Program-made: the position numbers and the translations under genes
Assembly (NCBI RefSeq): GCF_007990505.1
Contig: NZ_AP019822.1
Coordinates: 744,001 to 808,000 of the forward strand
Length of the DNA stretch: 64,000 bases
Reading direction: 5' to 3'
Origin: Pseudoleptotrichia goodfellowii
Lineage (GTDB): Bacteria > Fusobacteriota > Fusobacteriia > Fusobacteriales > Leptotrichiaceae
In this document: positions 2,891-64,000 of the stretch, piece after piece
Layout: the number at the start of each line of letters is the position of its first letter
Numbering within the stretch: the stretch's first letter is position 1
Notes under the pieces: generated by a model
The model's input: the letters and a program-made list of their open reading frames with translations, nothing else
Databases searched by the model: none
What the model was told of the DNA's origin: nothing

Positions 2891-4117
2891 ATGCCGGAAG
2901 AAATAATTACAAATAGAGGAATAAGAGTAATATTTGATAGACTTGAAAATATATCCACATGTTCTGTGGGAGTTTTTGTGAAAACAGGCTCAAAAGATGA
3001 AAGCGATCAGGAAGAAGGAATTTCACATGTGTTGGAACATATGATATTTAAAGGTACATCTAAAAGAGATTATTTTCAGATATCCGAAGAAGTGGATTAT
3101 TTGGGAGCGAGTATAAATGCACATACTACAAAAGAGGAAACAGTATTTTATATAAATGCTTTGACTGAATTTTTAGGGAAATCAGTAGATATTTTGTTTG
3201 ATATCGTAACAAATTCTTTGATTCCTGAAGATGAACTGAAAAAAGAAAAAGATGTAATAGTAGAAGAAATAAAAATGTATCAGGACAGTCCTGATGACCT
3301 TGTTTTTGAGCTTAATTATGCCGACTGCATAAAAGGGCAGTACAGTAAGCCTATTATAGGAACAGAAGAAAGTGTCAGAAGTTTTACTTCGGAAATGATA
3401 AAAAAATATTATAAAGAAAGATATACTAAAGATAATATTTTGATTGTTGTTTCGGGAAATTTTGACAAAAAAGAAATAATAGAAAAAATAGACGAATATT
3501 TTTCAAAATTACAGGAAAATAAAGTTGACAGAAGGGAAAATATAAGTTTTGAATTCAAAGAGGGCAGAGAAACTCATGAAAAAGATATAAATCAGGTAAA
3601 TATTTGTATTTCTTTTGAAGGAAAATCCTATAACAGCAGTGAAAGAATATACACAGACATTCTTGCAAATATTATGGGAGGCTCTATGAGTTCGAGACTT
3701 TTTCAGGAAATAAGGGAAAAGAAAGGACTTGCTTATTCTGTATATACTTATAATCAGTATTATAGAGAAGGCGGAGTTGTAACTACTTATATAGGAACGA
3801 ACATAGAAAGTTACAAAGAAGCAATAGATATTACACTTAAAGAATTTAGTAAAATGCGTAAAGAAGGAATTACGGAAACGGAATTACAAAAAGCGAAAAA
3901 CAAATATTTAAGTAAAATTGCTTTTTCGATGGAAAATCCGAGATCGAGAATGAGCATTCTCGGAAATTATTTCGTGAGAAGAGGAGAAATTATAGATATA
4001 GACAAAATGAAAAAAGAAATTCACGAAGTAAAATCCGAAAATATAAATGAATTTTTGAAAAGTCAGTATTTAAAACCGAATATAACCGTTTTGGGAAATA
4101 TAAAAGGAGATAAATAA
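2891..4117 (+). CDS. M16-family zinc peptidase (processing-peptidase-like)
   Basis: A pitrilysin/insulinase-family peptidase of about 408 residues, the usual length for single-chain bacterial M16B enzymes. The inverted zinc motif HxxEH is present as HVLEH (H46, E49, H50 from the ATG at 2891), with the downstream EEIKMYQDSPDD segment supplying the third acidic ligand region. The C-terminal half carries the family's R/Y-rich GLAYSVYTY motif. I chose 2891 because gggagg lies 5 bp upstream. The alternative ATG at 2864 sits inside a hairpin repeat. rodA begins 1 bp after the stop codon, so the two are translationally close. Substrate unknown. Confidence 0.85.
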   Translation: MPEEIITNRGIRVIFDRLENISTCSVGVFVKTGSKDESDQEEGISHVLEHMIFKGTSKRDYFQISEEVDYLGASINAHTTKEETVFYINALTEFLGKSVDILFDIVTNSLIPEDELKKEKDVIVEEIKMYQDSPDDLVFELNYADCIKGQYSKPIIGTEESVRSFTSEMIKKYYKERYTKDNILIVVSGNFDKKEIIEKIDEYFSKLQENKVDRRENISFEFKEGRETHEKDINQVNICISFEGKSYNSSERIYTDILANIMGGSMSSRLFQEIREKKGLAYSVYTYNQYYREGGVVTTYIGTNIESYKEAIDITLKEFSKMRKEGITETELQKAKNKYLSKIAFSMENPRSRMSILGNYFVRRGEIIDIDKMKKEIHEVKSENINEFLKSQYLKPNITVLGNIKGDK

Positions 4118-8358: not shown

Positions 8359-9549
8359 ATGAGTAATGGTGTATTAAAAAAATTTTTGTCTCCCAAACTT
8401 AGGGAATTAAAAGAAAAAGGACTTTATAATGAGATAGATGTCCTTGACGGTGCAAACGGGCCTGAAATTTTTATTAACGGAAGAAAATTGATTAATCTTT
8501 CTTCAAATAACTACTTGGGATTGGCTACAAGAGAAGATGTTAAACAGGCTGAAATAGAAGCTTCCAAAAAATACGGAGCCGGAGCCGGTGCTGTCAGAAC
8601 TATTAACGGAACAATGGTTATTCACAAAGAATTGGAAGAAACTATAGCCAAGTTTAAGCATACTGAAGCTGCTATTGCATTTCAATCGGGATTTAACTGT
8701 AATATGGCTGCAGTATCGGCTATTATGGATAAACAGGATGCGATTTTATCAGATGAGTTAAATCACGCTTCTATTATTGACGGATGCAGACTGTCAGGTG
8801 CAAAAATAATCCGTTGCAAACATCAAGATATGAATGATTTAAGATTGAAGGCGAAAGAAGCTATAGAAAGTGGACTTTATAATAAAATAATGTATATTTC
8901 CGACGGAGTATTTTCTATGGACGGAGATGTAGCAAAAATAAAAGAAATAGTTGAAGTGGCAAAAGAATTCGGATTAATAACTTATATTGATGATGCTCAC
9001 GGTTCGGGAGTAATGGGTGAAGGAGCAGGTACAGTTAAAGAATTTGGATGCTCTGCTGATATAGATATACAGGTAGGAACGCTTTCAAAAGCTGTCGGAG
9101 CTGTTGGAGGTTATGTTGCCGGAAGTAAGGAATTAATCGATTGGTTAAAAGTTAGAGGACGTCCATTTTTATTTTCGACATCTCTTACACCGGGAGCAGC
9201 GGCAGCAGCAAAAAAATCTATAGAAATAATTTCAACTGAAAAAGATTTAGTTAAAAAACTTTGGGAAAACAGTAGATATTTAAAACAGGAATTGAAAAAA
9301 ATAGGTTATGATACAGGTGTATCGGTAACTCCTATAACTCCTGTTATTATTGGAGATGAAAATAAAACTCAATTATTTTCTAAAAGACTTATAGAAGAAG
9401 GAGTATATGCAAAATCTATTACATATCCTACAGTACCTTTAGGAACAGGACGTGTAAGAAATATGCCTCAAGCAAGTCACACAAAAGAGATGCTTGATGA
9501 AGTTGTGAGAATTTATGAAAAAGTAGGAAAAGAACTTAAAGTAATTTAA
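8359..9549 (+). CDS. kbl: 2-amino-3-ketobutyrate CoA ligase (glycine C-acetyltransferase)
   Basis: A 396-residue PLP enzyme of the alpha-oxoamine synthase family. It cleaves 2-amino-3-oxobutyrate with CoA to glycine and acetyl-CoA. Key features are SSNNYLGLA near residue 50, [28 protein letters not shown], the [13 protein letters not shown]-binding motif and the Schiff-base Lys in [17 protein letters not shown] and 5-ALA synthase share this fold, but the adjoining threonine dehydrogenase gene, 47 bp downstream, selects the Kbl function. The start has ggaggt 8 bases upstream. Product glycine can feed the glycine reductase encoded at 55-61 kb. Confidence 0.93.
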
Positions 9550-9596: not shown

Positions 9597-10559
9597 ATGA
9601 AAAAGGTTTTAATTACAGGTGCAACGGGGCAAATAGGTACGGAACTTACAATCAGACTTAGAAAAGATTTGGGAATAGAAAACGTTATAGCAACAGACAT
9701 AAAAACGGGAGAAATAGCCGATGAAGGAATTTTTGAAATATTAGATGTAAAAGATTATGATAAGTTTTTAAAATTGGCTAAAAATAATAAAGTAGACACT
9801 ATTATACATTTAGCATCTATACTTTCGGCAACGGCTGAAAAAAATCCTTTAGGTGCATGGAGATTAAATATGGACGGACTTGTAAATGCTTTGGAAACTG
9901 CAAAAGAATGTCATGCTCAATTATTTGCACCTTCGTCTATTGCAGCATTCGGAGATGATACTCCAAAAGATCATACACCTCAAGACACATTAATGCACCC
10001 AAACACAATATACGGAGTAACAAAAGTTTCAGGAGAATTATTATGTGATTATTATTATACTAAATTCGGTGTAGATACAAGGTCCGTAAGATTTCCGGGA
10101 TTGATTTCTCATAAAACTCTTCCAGGAGGTGGAACTACCGATTATGCAGTTCATATTTATTATGATGCATTGACCAAAGGGGAGTATACAAGTTTTATAG
10201 ATAAAGGAACTTATATGGACATGATGTATATGGATGATGCCATTGATGCTATTATCAATATTTTAAATGCCGATCCTTCACAACTTAAACATAGAAACAG
10301 TTTTAATATTACGGCAACGAGTTTTGAGCCTGAACAGTTGGCGGCTACTATTAAAAAATATATACCGGAATTCAAATTAAAATATGATGTGGATCCTGTA
10401 AGACAAAAAATTGCAGATTCATGGCCTAATTCTTTGGATGACACATGTGCAAGAGAAGAGTGGCATTTCTCTCCTAAATATGATTTAAACAGAATGACTG
10501 AAACTATGTTAAAAGAATTATCCAAAAAACTGGATGTTAAAGTAAACTTGAATTTATAA
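9597..10559 (+). CDS. L-threonine 3-dehydrogenase, SDR/epimerase type
   Basis: A 320-residue extended short-chain dehydrogenase. The NAD-binding GATGQIG is at the extreme N-terminus, IHLASILSA follows, and the catalytic Tyr-Lys pair lies in YGVTKVSGE. The end matches the family (HFSPKYDLNRMTETML). Its position directly behind kbl identifies it as the NAD-dependent threonine dehydrogenase of the SDR class, rather than the zinc MDR type of E. coli. It oxidises L-threonine to 2-amino-3-oxobutyrate, the unstable substrate passed to Kbl. A strong agggagg site precedes the ATG. A symporter gene follows 38 bp later. Confidence 0.9.
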   Translation: MKKVLITGATGQIGTELTIRLRKDLGIENVIATDIKTGEIADEGIFEILDVKDYDKFLKLAKNNKVDTIIHLASILSATAEKNPLGAWRLNMDGLVNALETAKECHAQLFAPSSIAAFGDDTPKDHTPQDTLMHPNTIYGVTKVSGELLCDYYYTKFGVDTRSVRFPGLISHKTLPGGGTTDYAVHIYYDALTKGEYTSFIDKGTYMDMMYMDDAIDAIINILNADPSQLKHRNSFNITATSFEPEQLAATIKKYIPEFKLKYDVDPVRQKIADSWPNSLDDTCAREEWHFSPKYDLNRMTETMLKELSKKLDVKVNLNL

Positions 10560-16632: not shown

Positions 16633-16654
16633 AAATTAACAATTAAATATGCAA

Positions 16655-16756
16655 CTTATCAAGAGAGGTATGAGAGACGCGGCTCGTTATTAGTACCCGG
16701 CAACCTGTATAAAAATACAAGGTGCCAATTCCCGGCATATTAAATGCGAAGATAAG
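16655..16756 (+). ncRNA. SAM-I (S-box) riboswitch
   Basis: P1 arms cttatc (16655-16660) and gataag (16751-16756) pair perfectly. Between them lie the S-box core elements agagagg, the central ggctcg...tacccggcaacc block, and the aggtgcc stretch followed by ccaattcccgg. These match the conserved SAM-I aptamer. It binds S-adenosylmethionine. Its location upstream of metK, the SAM synthetase, gives feedback control; in this family ligand binding normally turns expression off. Confidence 0.92.
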
Positions 16757-16765
16757 AATTAATTT

Positions 16766-51125: not shown

Positions 51126-51182
51126 TAAAATAGAAAATAGCAGTAATCAAAAATAAAGAATATTTAAAATATTTGGATGAAA

Positions 51183-51296
51183 AATGCGTGAGAGCCTCTT
51201 AGATATTATCAGAGCACCGAAGGGACAAGTTGATAATCTGCAATTATTGATGAAATTCTCAGGTAAACAGAACGTATTTGGACAAAACTCTGAAAT
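51183..51296 (+). ncRNA. Glycine riboswitch (single aptamer)
   Basis: Aptamer core: gtgagagc..., a P3-type stem agatattatc/gataatct, the signature gcaccgaaggg-acaag, then attctcaggtaaacagaacg and ggacaaaactctga. These match the conserved glycine aptamer. P1 is gtgagag with attctca. Only one full aptamer is evident. It precedes grdX and the whole grd operon. Glycine riboswitches upstream of glycine-degrading genes normally switch expression on when glycine is abundant. Confidence 0.9.
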
Positions 51297-51371: not shown

Positions 51372-51743
51372 GTGAAACTAATAACAAACAATCCGAATTT
51401 TTTGAATTATAAAAAGAAAGATATAGAAGTGGATTACAGAGATGTCGATTATCTCAAAATATTGGAGATTGCGAGGGACTACATACATGTAAATTATGAG
51501 TTGCTTACTCATCCTTTGTATGGAAGTGTAAAGCCCAATGAAACCATATACAGATCAATAGTTTTGAAATCAAACGATAATCTTGATCATAATTCTGTTG
51601 TAATGATATCCGAAGCAATAGAAACTTTTGTAAAGTTCAGAAAAAATAAGGAAACTCCTTTATGGACAGATACTGTAAAAGAAGATTTCGGAGTGATAGA
51701 CTATGATTTGATTACTAACGCTATAGAAAGAATTATAAAATAG
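51372..51743 (+). CDS. grdX: GrdX family protein
   Basis: 123 residues, starting at GTG with aaaggag 9 bases upstream. GrdX signatures: LITNNPNFL, ARDYIHVNYELLTHPLYGSVKPNETIYRSIVL, and the DFGVIDYDLI ending. It is a conserved small protein of unknown function found at the head of glycine-reductase operons. It is first in this riboswitch-controlled unit. Confidence 0.9.
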   Translation: MKLITNNPNFLNYKKKDIEVDYRDVDYLKILEIARDYIHVNYELLTHPLYGSVKPNETIYRSIVLKSNDNLDHNSVVMISEAIETFVKFRKNKETPLWTDTVKEDFGVIDYDLITNAIERIIK

Positions 51744-57474: not shown

Positions 57475-58785
57475 ATGTCTAAAATAAGAGCAGTGCATTA
57501 TATTAATCAGTTTTTTGCTGGAGTTGGAGGGGAAGAAAAAGCTCATATAGAGCCTGAATTAAGAAAAGAATTGCCGCCAATATCACAGCAATTACAAGCA
57601 CAATTAGGAGACGAATTTGAAATAGTGGCTGCAGTAGTATGCGGAGACAGCTATTTCAATGAAAATCTGGAAAAAGCACAGGCAACTTTATTGAAAATGA
57701 TTAAAGGTTTAGAACCTCAATTATTTATAGCAGGACCGGCATTTAATGCAGGACGTTACGGAGTTGCTGCGGGAACAATTACAAAATTAATTCAAGATGA
57801 GTTACATATACCGGCTGTAACAGCTATGTATATTGAAAATCCGGGTGTAGATATGTACAGAAAAGATGTATATATAGTAGAAGCATCCGACAGTGCAGCA
57901 GGAATGAGAAAAGTTTTACCTAAATTAGCTAAATTAGCAACAAAATTGGCTAAAGGAGAAGAAATACTTTCTCCTGCAGAAGAAGGATATATCCCTAAAG
58001 GAGTAAGGGTAAACTTCTTCCATAAAGAAACAGGATCCAAACGTGCTGTAGATATGTTAATCAAAAAAATTAAAGGTGAGCCTTTTGAAACTGAATATCC
58101 TATGCCTAATTTCGATCGTGTAGATCCTAATCCGGCAGTTAAAGATTTAACTAAAGCAACAATCGCATTGGTTACATCAGGAGGAATAGTACCTAAAGGA
58201 AACCCTGATCACATTGAATCATCTTCAGCATCAAAATATGGAGAATACAGTATAGCAGGAGTTAATGACTTGACAGCTGATACATTTGAAACAGCTCATG
58301 GAGGATACGACCCTGTGTACGCAAATGAAGATGCAGACCGTGTGTTACCTGTAGATATAATGAGAGAATTGGAAAAAGCAGGAAAAATCGGTAAATTACA
58401 CGATAAATTCTACACTACAGTAGGTAACGGTACAGCGGTAGCGAGTGCAAAAGGATTTGCAGCAGAGTATGCACAAAAATTAAAAGCTGACGGGGTAGAT
58501 GCAGTTATCTTAACATCTACTTGAGGAACTTGTACACGTTGCGGTGCAACGATGGTTAAAGAAATTGAGAGAGCAGGAATCCCTGTAGTACATATGTGTA
58601 CAGTAGTACCTATATCTCTTACAGTTGGAGCAAACAGAATCGTTCCGACTATAGCAATACCTCATCCGTTAGGAAATCCTAAATTGGACAGCATAGAAGA
58701 AGAAAGAAAAATAAGAAGAAAATTAATAGATAAGGCGTTAAAAGCATTAACGACAGAAGTAGACGGTCAAACAGTATTTGAATAA
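57475..58785 (+). CDS. grdB: Selenoprotein B of glycine reductase (Sec codon TGA at 58522)
   Basis: 436 residues when TGA 58522-58524 is read as selenocysteine at residue 350, matching known GrdB. The active site reads TSTUGTCTRCGATMVKEIER. N-terminus IRAVHYINQFFAGVGGEEKAH; AAVVCGDSYFNEN, AGPAFNAGRYGVA and TSGGIVPKGNPDHIESSSA are family motifs. With processed GrdE it is the glycine-specific component B. An aggaggt site precedes the ATG by 6 bases. Confidence 0.96.
58537..58551 (+). promoter_or_regulatory. SECIS-like hairpin in grdB
   Basis: cgttgc/gcaacg stem with loop ggt; the loop lies 21 nt after the first base of the UGA. Size, distance and loop GGU fit a bacterial SECIS recognised by SelB. 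The same hairpin design occurs at 63657-63671. Confidence 0.65.
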
Positions 58786-61681: not shown

Positions 61682-61867
61682 GATATAGGAAGTTTTTATA
61701 AATTATATAGTTATTACTATACGGAAGTACAATAATAGTGATTTTGGGTACTTTGTAAATATTCTGATTAATATGTAAATTATTTAAAGAATAAAATAGG
61801 ATTTTTATGAAGACGGTAATTATTATTTGCTTGTGTATTAAATTTCAATATGCAGGGAGTGAAAAAA

Positions 61868-63292
61868 ATGGGTTATGAAAAATTAGTAGATTTAATAAAC
61901 ACAATAAATAGTTTTATTGCAAGTAATATTTTGATGTGGGGATTATTGGGAGCGGGAGCATTTCTTACTCTTTTTTTAGGATTTCCACAGATAACTAAAA
62001 TGTCAAGAGCATTTGGAATGGTATTTGGAGGGCTGTTTAAGAAAAAAGCAAATTCAAAAGAAGGTTCTATGTCTTCATTTCAAGCACTTGCTACAGCTAT
62101 TGCGGCACAAGTGGGAACAGGTAACGTAGCCGGAGTTGCCACTGCCATAACTGCAGGAGGACCGGGAGCTATTTTTTGGATGTGGGTTTCAGCATTTTTA
62201 GGAATGGGAACAATTTTTACAGAAGCAACTTTGGCACAAAAGTACAGAAAAAAAATTCATGGAGAACTTGTAGGAGGACCGGCTTATTATATTTCTTACG
62301 GATTAAAAAAAGCAGGAATTTTAAGTAAATTTTTAGCAGGATTTTTTGCAGTGTCTATTATTTTAGCTCTCGGTTTTATGGGAAATGCCGTACAGTCAAA
62401 TTCTATAGCATCGGGAATTAAAGGAATAAGTGGACTGGAAAATATAAATGCAGGAATAATCGGTGTTATAGTGGCAGTTTTGGCAGCCTTGATATTCTGG
62501 GGAGGAATGCAAAGAATAGCAAAATTTGCAGAACTCGTAGTTCCTATTATGGCGGCAGTTTATATATTGGCAAGTATTATAGTTTTAATTATATTTCATA
62601 AAGAAATAATACCTACAGTAATTTGGATATTTGAAAGTGCCTTTACACCTCATGCAGCAGTCGGAGGAATTGCAGGTTCAATAGTTAAAGTAGCAGTTCA
62701 GAAAGGTATCGCAAGAGGATTGTTTTCGAATGAGGCAGGAATGGGATCTACTCCTCACGCTCATGCCGTAGCACATGTAAATCATCCGGCAGAACAGGGA
62801 TTATCAGCTATGGTAGGAGTATTTATAGATACTATACTTGTTTGCTCAGCTACAGCTTTATCTATCTTGGTTACAGGAGCATATAACCTTAAAGATGCAG
62901 GCGATAAATATTTAAGAGGAGCACAGCTTACTCAAGGTGCATTTAAAAATGCCTTTGGAGAGCCGGGAGCAATTTTACTTGCTATCTGTCTTGCATTTTT
63001 CGCATTTACAACTATAGTAGGATGGTATTATTTCGGAGAATCAAATATTAAATATCTGTTCGGTAAATCGGCTTTGCTTCCTTACAGAATAATAGTAATA
63101 GTTTGTATAATTGTAGGAGCATTACAGGAAGTTGATATAGTATGGTCATTGGCTGATATATTTAACAGTTTAATGGTTATTCCGAACTTGATAGCAATCG
63201 TATGGTTATCAGGAGAAGCAAAAGAGTTACTGGCAGATTATAATAAAAAATATGAAAAAAATGATGTCTATTATGATTATGAAGATAAGTAA
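61868..63292 (+). CDS. AGCS-family sodium:alanine/glycine symporter
   Basis: About 474 residues with 10-11 membrane segments. AGCS motifs: FQALATAIAAQVGTGNVAGVATAITAGGPGAIFWMWVSAFLGMG, FTEATLAQKYR, GGPAYYISYGL, and GLFSNEAGMGSTPHAHAVAHVNHPAEQG. It imports alanine or glycine with Na+. Its place between the grd operon and a second Grd-type operon suggests glycine (or sarcosine/betaine-like) uptake (inference). Start chosen at ATG 61868 with agggag 7 bases upstream; ATG 61850 lacks a site. Confidence 0.9.
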   Translation: MGYEKLVDLINTINSFIASNILMWGLLGAGAFLTLFLGFPQITKMSRAFGMVFGGLFKKKANSKEGSMSSFQALATAIAAQVGTGNVAGVATAITAGGPGAIFWMWVSAFLGMGTIFTEATLAQKYRKKIHGELVGGPAYYISYGLKKAGILSKFLAGFFAVSIILALGFMGNAVQSNSIASGIKGISGLENINAGIIGVIVAVLAALIFWGGMQRIAKFAELVVPIMAAVYILASIIVLIIFHKEIIPTVIWIFESAFTPHAAVGGIAGSIVKVAVQKGIARGLFSNEAGMGSTPHAHAVAHVNHPAEQGLSAMVGVFIDTILVCSATALSILVTGAYNLKDAGDKYLRGAQLTQGAFKNAFGEPGAILLAICLAFFAFTTIVGWYYFGESNIKYLFGKSALLPYRIIVIVCIIVGALQEVDIVWSLADIFNSLMVIPNLIAIVWLSGEAKELLADYNKKYEKNDVYYDYEDK

Positions 63293-63450: not shown

Positions 63451-63478
63451 TTGACAAATCAAAAAATGAGGTTATACT
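63451..63478 (+). promoter_or_regulatory. Promoter of the double-TGA ORF / second Grd unit
   Basis: TTGACA, a 16-bp spacer, then TATACT, giving a transcript start near 63485 and an 85-base leader before the small ORF. No riboswitch is recognised in the leader. Confidence 0.8.
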
Positions 63479-63569
63479 ATAAACATAAGATAGGTGAGAA
63501 ATTAATAAACAGTAATTTAATTTAAGTTATCAGCTTTTTAAATTAATGAAGATTGAAAGGAGAATTATT

Positions 63570-63731
63570 GTGAAAATAGTAGTTAATAACTTTAATACAA
63601 AAATAAAGAATGATAATTTGAATAATATGTACTTTTGAAGCTGAGAAGTATGTAATCATTGCGGTGCAATGAAATTACAGAATATGAATAACTTTTTATG
63701 CACAAGGCATTTTTATGCTCTAAATTTTTGA
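63570..63731 (+). CDS. Candidate small selenoprotein / leader peptide with two in-frame TGA (U-x-U) codons
   Basis: GTG start with aaaggag 7 bases upstream. If the TGA codons at 63636 and 63642 are read as selenocysteine, the product is 53 residues: MKIVVNNFNTKIKNDNLNNMYF, then U-S-U-E-V-C-N-H-C-G-A-M-K, then LQNMNNFLCTRHFYALNF, ending at TGA 63729 (a TAA lies four codons later). The UxxCxxCGAM core matches the GrdB active site (UGTCTRCGATM), also at base level (tga-g.a-...-tgt-...-tgcggtgca). A SECIS-like hairpin and a terminator follow. I do not recognise a named family. Conventional gene calling would miss it. Confidence 0.62.
63651..63679 (+). promoter_or_regulatory. SECIS-like hairpin behind the double TGA
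   Basis: tgtaat-cattgc, loop ggt, gcaatg-aa-attaca: two 6-bp stems with an AA bulge. The loop begins 21 nt after the first base of the second TGA, exactly the grdB distance, and 27 nt after that of the first TGA. Confidence 0.65.
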
Positions 63732-63754
63732 GTTGGAGTATAAGAATGCTTTTT
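63707..63754 (+). terminator. Intrinsic terminator overlapping the small ORF end
   Basis: gcatttttatgctc (63707-63720) pairs with gagtataagaatgc (63736-63749) over 14 bp with two G-T pairs, followed by T5. The 5' arm lies within the last codons of the double-TGA ORF, so a ribosome reaching the ORF end would block it. Confidence 0.75.
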
Positions 63755-63878
63755 GTATTTTATTATAGTTTATAAACATTAGATATATAAATCTGGAAAT
63801 AAGGAGGTGGCGTATAAAAATATAATTTTGATAAAATTCTAAAAATGGTTATAAAATATTGAAGGAGGTAACATCTTA

Positions 63879-64000
63879 TGAAATTAGAATTAGGAAAAAT
63901 TAAAATCAACGATATACAGTTTTCCGATAAAACTTATGTCGAAAATCACATTCTTTATGTTAATAAAGAAGAAGTAGAAAAACTTGTTTTGGAAGATGAC
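63879..64000 (+). CDS. GrdE-family component B proprotein (GrdG/GrdI-like), 3'-truncated by window edge
   Basis: The first 40 residues (MKLELGKIKINDIQFSDKT...ILYVNKEEVEKLVLEDD) align with the GrdE N-terminus encoded at 55633 (MRLELGKIFIKDIQFASES...VLYVNKEELIKAIWDDE). A strong gaaggaggtaac site precedes the ATG. It is therefore the start of a second substrate-specific component B, probably for sarcosine (GrdG), betaine (GrdI) or another amine; the substrate cannot be told from this piece. Confidence 0.82.

Follow-up and report, generated by a model that had tools for sequence, protein, structure and literature searches.

The window, by which we mean the whole stretch of 64,000 nucleotides analysed here, closes inside grdG (PF09338), which runs past the window end and is followed by grdF. 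Between grdG and an upstream gene for an AgcS amino-acid carrier lies a short leader ORF with two in-frame UGA codons. The features that matter for what follows are these:

57475..58785, + strand: grdB selenoprotein gene, with the reference SECIS_4 at 58525-58562
61850..63292, + strand: AgcS amino-acid carrier gene, upstream of the leader
63451..63478, + strand: leader promoter TTGACA-16-TATACT, 11 of 12 consensus bases, with different flanks in the second copy
63556..63562, + strand: ribosome-binding site AAAGGAG, 7 nt 5' of the start codon, in both copies
63570..63731, + strand: leader ORF, starting with GTG and interrupted in frame by two UGAs; reading both as selenocysteine (Sec) gives 53 residues
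63626..63654, + strand: hairpin of 11 bp around both UGAs, competing with the lower stem of the SECIS-like hairpin
63636..63638, + strand: UGA1, first putative Sec codon
63642..63644, + strand: UGA2, second putative Sec codon
63651..63679, + strand: SECIS-like hairpin with apex CATTGC-GGT-GCAATG and lower stem UGUAA/UUACA
63698..63758, + strand: terminator-like hairpin, 25 bp, -27 kcal/mol, z -5.6 to -6.8
63729..63731, + strand: UGA3, the stop of the read-through frame, lying in the terminator-like hairpin's loop at 63724-63732
63747..63761, + strand: U-rich tract following or overlapping the terminator-like hairpin
63762..63809, + strand: stretch after the hairpin with AAGGAGGTG at its end, kept in both copies and possibly the leftover ribosome site of an ancestral leader
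63878..64000, + strand: grdG, first gene of the operon that the leader is predicted to govern

An initial annotation had described a promoter, a ribosome site, GTG at 63570, 22 codons, TGA-AGC-TGA and a third TGA, and all of these are present. The tail EVCNHCGAMK is present too, although 18 codons follow it and not 19 as had been stated. The other two forward frames have 8 stops each across the leader ORF. In shuffled sequences the 28 codons after UGA2 are open in 12% of cases and the 22 codons before UGA1 in 5%; the openness of the ORF alone is weak evidence for coding.

The leader and its second copy

A second copy of the leader, absent from the initial annotation, occurs elsewhere in this genome. 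It is situated 4.8 kb downstream (C1:812340-812504; L005:6341-6505), ahead of a BCCT transporter gene and the betaine-reductase genes grdI-grdH, just as the window copy stands ahead of grdG-grdF. Across a 3-nt indel it retains the promoter, ribosome site, start codon, both UGAs, the SECIS-like hairpin and UGA3. Conservation of both TGAs and of the CxxCGAM codons, on which the earlier reading had been staked, is seen in the twin copy of the same genome only; no homologous loci were found in the other genomes searched (see below).

Over the stretch from UGA1 to AAGGAGGTG their identity is 98%, and a single codon out of about 32 differs, by a synonymous change. The C-terminal 33 positions of the ORF are identical. 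Before UGA1, 27 of 66 aligned bases differ in addition to the indel, the substitutions falling 11, 5 and 11 at the three codon positions. Here the ribosome site, start and frame are kept, and about 8 of the 22 N-terminal residues are common to both copies. The promoters, spacer included, match at 30 of 32 positions (94%), and the 5' UTRs between promoter and ORF align poorly. Two explanations of this mosaic can be suggested. The promoter and the part from the UGAs to the terminator may have been held while the rest was free to change, or the 3' part may have been converted recently; both may be true. The identity of 98% could, in other words, stem from a recent conversion event and need not reflect selection.

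The initial annotation took the ORF to encode a 53-residue selenoprotein with a GrdB-like redox centre. Comparison did not support this. The peptide has no match in Pfam, NCBIfam or PDB and does not match the GrdB family model (PF07355), and it has no homologue in the other genomes searched; structure prediction gives no confident fold (pLDDT 40), a result that is uninformative with 2 sequences. One may still imagine a small redox protein with two Sec residues, U-x-U-x-x-C-x-x-C, co-expressed with the sarcosine and betaine reductases and perhaps acting as a selenium or electron carrier, for which the hairpin would merely be the terminator. Closely spaced Sec pairs are known elsewhere, for instance UxxU in the FmdB family (listed in a table in PMC13188914). 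Furthermore, the retained ribosome site, start and frame and the identical C-terminal positions of the two copies would suit such a protein. However, it would belong to no known family, its 22 N-terminal residues have diverged through substitutions that do not favour third codon positions, and the non-coding terminator and tail are almost as conserved as the codons. It would also have its stop codon in the loop of a terminator, which is odd for an ordinary gene, and would leave the operon without a separate promoter after that terminator. On balance such a protein seems distinctly unlikely. A regulatory leader fits the succession of promoter, leader ORF, stop in the terminator loop and structural genes better than a redox selenoprotein does. 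The CxxCGAM residues are for the most part a translation of the SECIS hairpin in the frame of the ORF.

The SECIS-like hairpin and predicted decoding of UGA

It had been noted earlier that a GGT-loop hairpin follows the UGAs at the same distance as in grdB, and this is indeed the case: the apex lies 18 nt after UGA2, a spacing shared with grdB, grdF and grdH. A scan for this geometry (UGA, 18 nt, GGT loop) recovers the Sec codons of grdB, grdF and grdH in five related genomes, each at 18 nt, and covers nearly all such codons in the loci scanned. Relative to grdB, the stem in the leader carries one compensatory pair change, G-C to A-U. When the whole 2.29 Mb genome is searched with SECIS_4 (RF01990), the matches above threshold are grdB, grdF and grdH only. 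With E up to 10, only the leader ORF and its twin are added; each scores 18.4 bits (E 0.25), short of the gathering score of 38. When the 35 nt that follow each of the window's 2,245 TGA sites are compared with those after UGA2, the Sec codon of grdB comes out as most similar (22 of 35 positions; the runner-up has 19 of 35). The covariance model built from the leader matches grdB SECIS sites in other genomes as well. The genes for SelB and tRNA-Sec lie about 30 kb downstream of the leader. Spacing, SECIS_4 matches, similarity around UGA2 and the matches of the leader model all support the initial annotation in taking the UGAs for Sec codons with a SECIS derived from grdB, and the machinery for Sec insertion is there. 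We conclude that the hairpin is a SECIS by origin, descended from a grdB-type gene, and that it probably works as one.

UGA1 is separated from the GGT loop by 24 nt, more than in any grd gene here, and may for this reason be decoded poorly. In the hairpin around the UGAs, pairing is kept at the two positions of the 5' arm that differ between the copies.

The leader has the GGT apex, the TTGC/GCAA stem, the 18 nt from UGA and the upstream ribosome site and frame of SECIS_4 elements; it differs from them in its score and in being located in a 53-codon leader rather than a reductase gene. With GrdB, GrdF and GrdH (PF07355) it shares the U-x-x-C-x-x-C-G-A stretch together with its SECIS. However, it has no other similarity to them, and it contains two UGAs where they have one.

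The main sceptical reading is that we are looking at a scrap of a duplicated grdB-type gene, or at a small repeat, that is decaying and open by chance. The SECIS part is homologous to grdB, the leader has no homologues elsewhere, and one relative (G018) has in the same betaine locus a pseudogene-like grdH fragment with UGA and SECIS. The homology to grdB is, however, limited to about 40-60 nt. Moreover, a decaying scrap would hardly keep promoter, ribosome site, start, UGAs, SECIS and terminator in two copies while the rest diverged, nor preserve pairing in the UGA hairpin. We regard this reading as unlikely.

A different possibility is that SelB loaded with Sec-tRNA binds the leader SECIS and acts directly on the terminator or on translation, with no read-through. 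SelB is present and the SECIS apex is kept. E. coli selAB resembles the leader in having a SECIS-like element in the 5' leader of selenium genes, but it is not known to have a UGA-containing leader ORF or to overlap a terminator. Autoregulation by SelB at selAB, noted in PMC8124441, would be comparable. Such binding needs no ribosome site, no frame that stays open for 28 codons beyond the UGAs, no UGA at exactly 18 nt and no stop in the terminator loop, all of which the leader possesses, and we find it very unlikely to be the explanation.

A proposed attenuator that senses selenocysteine

Directly 3' of the SECIS, between the ORF and the operon, lies a terminator-like hairpin that the initial annotation did not mention. 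It is rich in A-U pairs with a loop of 9 nt, and a simple terminator scan did not call it. Its layout is that of a predicted intrinsic terminator placed between leader and structural gene and within reach of a ribosome translating the leader. The frame remains open along the whole 5' arm and ends with UGA3 in the loop. When folding is constrained by a ribosome placed at UGA1 or UGA2, the terminator core keeps a probability of 0.96; when the ribosome is on the 5' arm the probability falls to 0.14-0.00, and it is 0.36 when the ribosome is at UGA3. In neither copy did a promoter scan detect a usable promoter downstream of this hairpin and ahead of the operon's first gene. The window copy has one candidate there, but its transcript would begin at the ribosome site of grdG.

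We propose that the leader is a transcription attenuator that senses selenocysteine. If Sec-tRNA and SelB are plentiful, ribosomes would decode both UGAs and continue. The reading ribosome would cover the 5' arm of the terminator up to UGA3 in the loop, and the hairpin could not form. With the terminator blocked, RNA polymerase would proceed into the operon. If selenium is scarce, release factor 2 would terminate translation at the UGAs, the terminator would form about 55 nt downstream, and costly enzymes that depend on Sec would not be transcribed. The presence of two UGAs might sharpen the response, as do the paired Trp codons of trpL, though with the sign reversed, since the operon would be on when the amino acid is present. 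We give this reading about an even chance: its parts can be read from the sequence, and the switching is what we infer from their arrangement.

Several observations speak for such a leader. The parts come in the same order in two copies ahead of two Sec-dependent operons; in both, a promoter is followed by a translatable leader ORF in which the codons for the sensed residue are clustered (UGA-AGC-UGA). Changes in the SECIS stem (relative to grdB) and in the UGA hairpin (between copies) preserve pairs. The promoter and the stretch from UGA to terminator are conserved, the latter even at synonymous sites, against strong divergence of the 5' UTR and the N-terminal codons. The SECIS spacing of the grd genes, the shift in folding, the lack of a later promoter and the presence of selB and tRNA-Sec point in the same direction. 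Control by leader RNA would also be normal for the grd locus, since the sister glycine module of this window carries a glycine riboswitch (51177-51284) before the GrdX-family gene (51372-51743) that heads the glycine-reductase region. Other observations count against the proposal: the leader is absent from all other genomes searched, its SECIS_4 score falls below the gathering score, UGA1 is far from the GGT loop, the high identity of the copies could be due to conversion, and the A-U-rich terminator escaped the simple scan.

In attenuators such as trpL and hisL, a promoter is followed by a brief leader ORF in which codons for the sensed amino acid recur, by hairpins surrounding those codons and by a terminator ahead of the operon, and the leader described here has the same composition. 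It would differ in that the sensed residue is Sec, specified by UGA and SECIS, in that starvation leads to termination of translation instead of stalling, and in being on when the amino acid is present. In pyrL of pyrBI, UTP is sensed through polymerase pausing, and the leader ORF enters the terminator. Here, too, the ORF runs into the terminator, where a translating ribosome would block termination, but the proposed gate is Sec decoding at UGA and not UTP or polymerase pausing.

Classical attenuators sense ordinary amino acids. We found no description of a leader peptide sensing Sec, or of transcription attenuation with selenocysteine, in the open-access papers searched, which cover older work only in part. 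A 2026 review of prokaryotic selenoproteins mentions neither leaders nor attenuation nor riboswitches. Whether this would be the first leader peptide that senses Sec, with UGA recoding as the on-switch for selenoprotein operons, we judge a little short of evenly balanced. If true, the decision between stop and Sec at a UGA would be coupled directly to transcription, which would explain how the bacterium avoids making truncated, useless selenoenzymes during selenium shortage. It would also offer a ready selenium reporter, and UGA-containing leaders would be worth seeking before other selenoprotein operons, since gene callers are blind to such ORFs.

Occurrence in relatives and neighbouring elements

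The initial annotation had suggested a search for UxxCxxCGAM mini-ORFs upstream of grdE/grdG genes. Protein searches of 98 genomes of the phylum and peptide and motif searches of genome contigs from 85,000 species returned no family of UxUxxCxxCGAM proteins and no relative of the leader peptide. Of 47 motif matches, none combined an upstream frame, a SECIS and a grd context. Plasmids and phages gave no leader match either, and the weak DNA matches in relatives are short, with E near the limit. Neither the protein nor the RNA model finds the leader in the 98 genomes apart from its own two copies; this search covers the phylum. The RNA model (R1) additionally picks up grdB SECIS sites in three genomes (G088, G089, G091) and one terminator in G074, which precedes a BCCT gene and is accompanied by neither UGA nor SECIS. 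In four genomes of another family, apparent sites of a UGA with a hairpin ahead of grd genes turned out to be TTGACT promoters.

The leader is missing from every other genome searched, among them two members of the genus with otherwise similar operons. It is lacking in G018, G020, G021 and G022, relatives that carry these operons too. Only short spacers of 97-258 bp precede grdG and the BCCT gene in G020-G022, and the operons there have no need of such an element. The lack of matches outside its own genome in the searches made suggests that the leader is young or confined to this species, and this is the main weakness of the attenuator reading.

Some further observations were made along the way. 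A SAM riboswitch aptamer above the Rfam threshold is located at 16653-16758 of the window. Beyond the window, a frame of 10 codons, GTGATTGATAACAATCATACAACAAAAATATGA (L005:6668-6700), overlaps the start codon of the BCCT gene (ATGA), which suggests that this frame and the BCCT gene are translationally coupled; the region of its ribosome site looks similar in related genomes. Directly after grdH (L005:11105-13417) come a gene resembling cysteine desulfurase or selenocysteine lyase and one for a putative selenium transporter of the YedE family.

The grdH fragment of G018 mentioned above (L072, ~8380-8740, between grdX and the BCCT gene) is C-terminal, has its own ribosome site and ATG, and keeps UGA and SECIS, with the outer SECIS pair changed from C-G to A-T; an ordinary terminator follows. 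Its substitutions are spread evenly over codon positions (13, 11, 13). It is probably a pseudogene and does not have the layout of the leader. The same genome has a different leader common to grdG (upstream, L072 ~3510-3610) and the BCCT gene (~9670-9770), consisting of a TTGACA promoter, then ATATCATGAT and TTGTAATAA..TTGCCGGTAA, which is a candidate for another regulatory element. Upstream of grd genes in the four genomes of another family (L255, L257, L260, L261) there is a conserved TTGACTTATA promoter followed by TTAATCGCGATTAG repeats, as well as AATCGCGATTAG, which also occurs in L249; this region is probably an operator to which a regulator of the grd genes binds.
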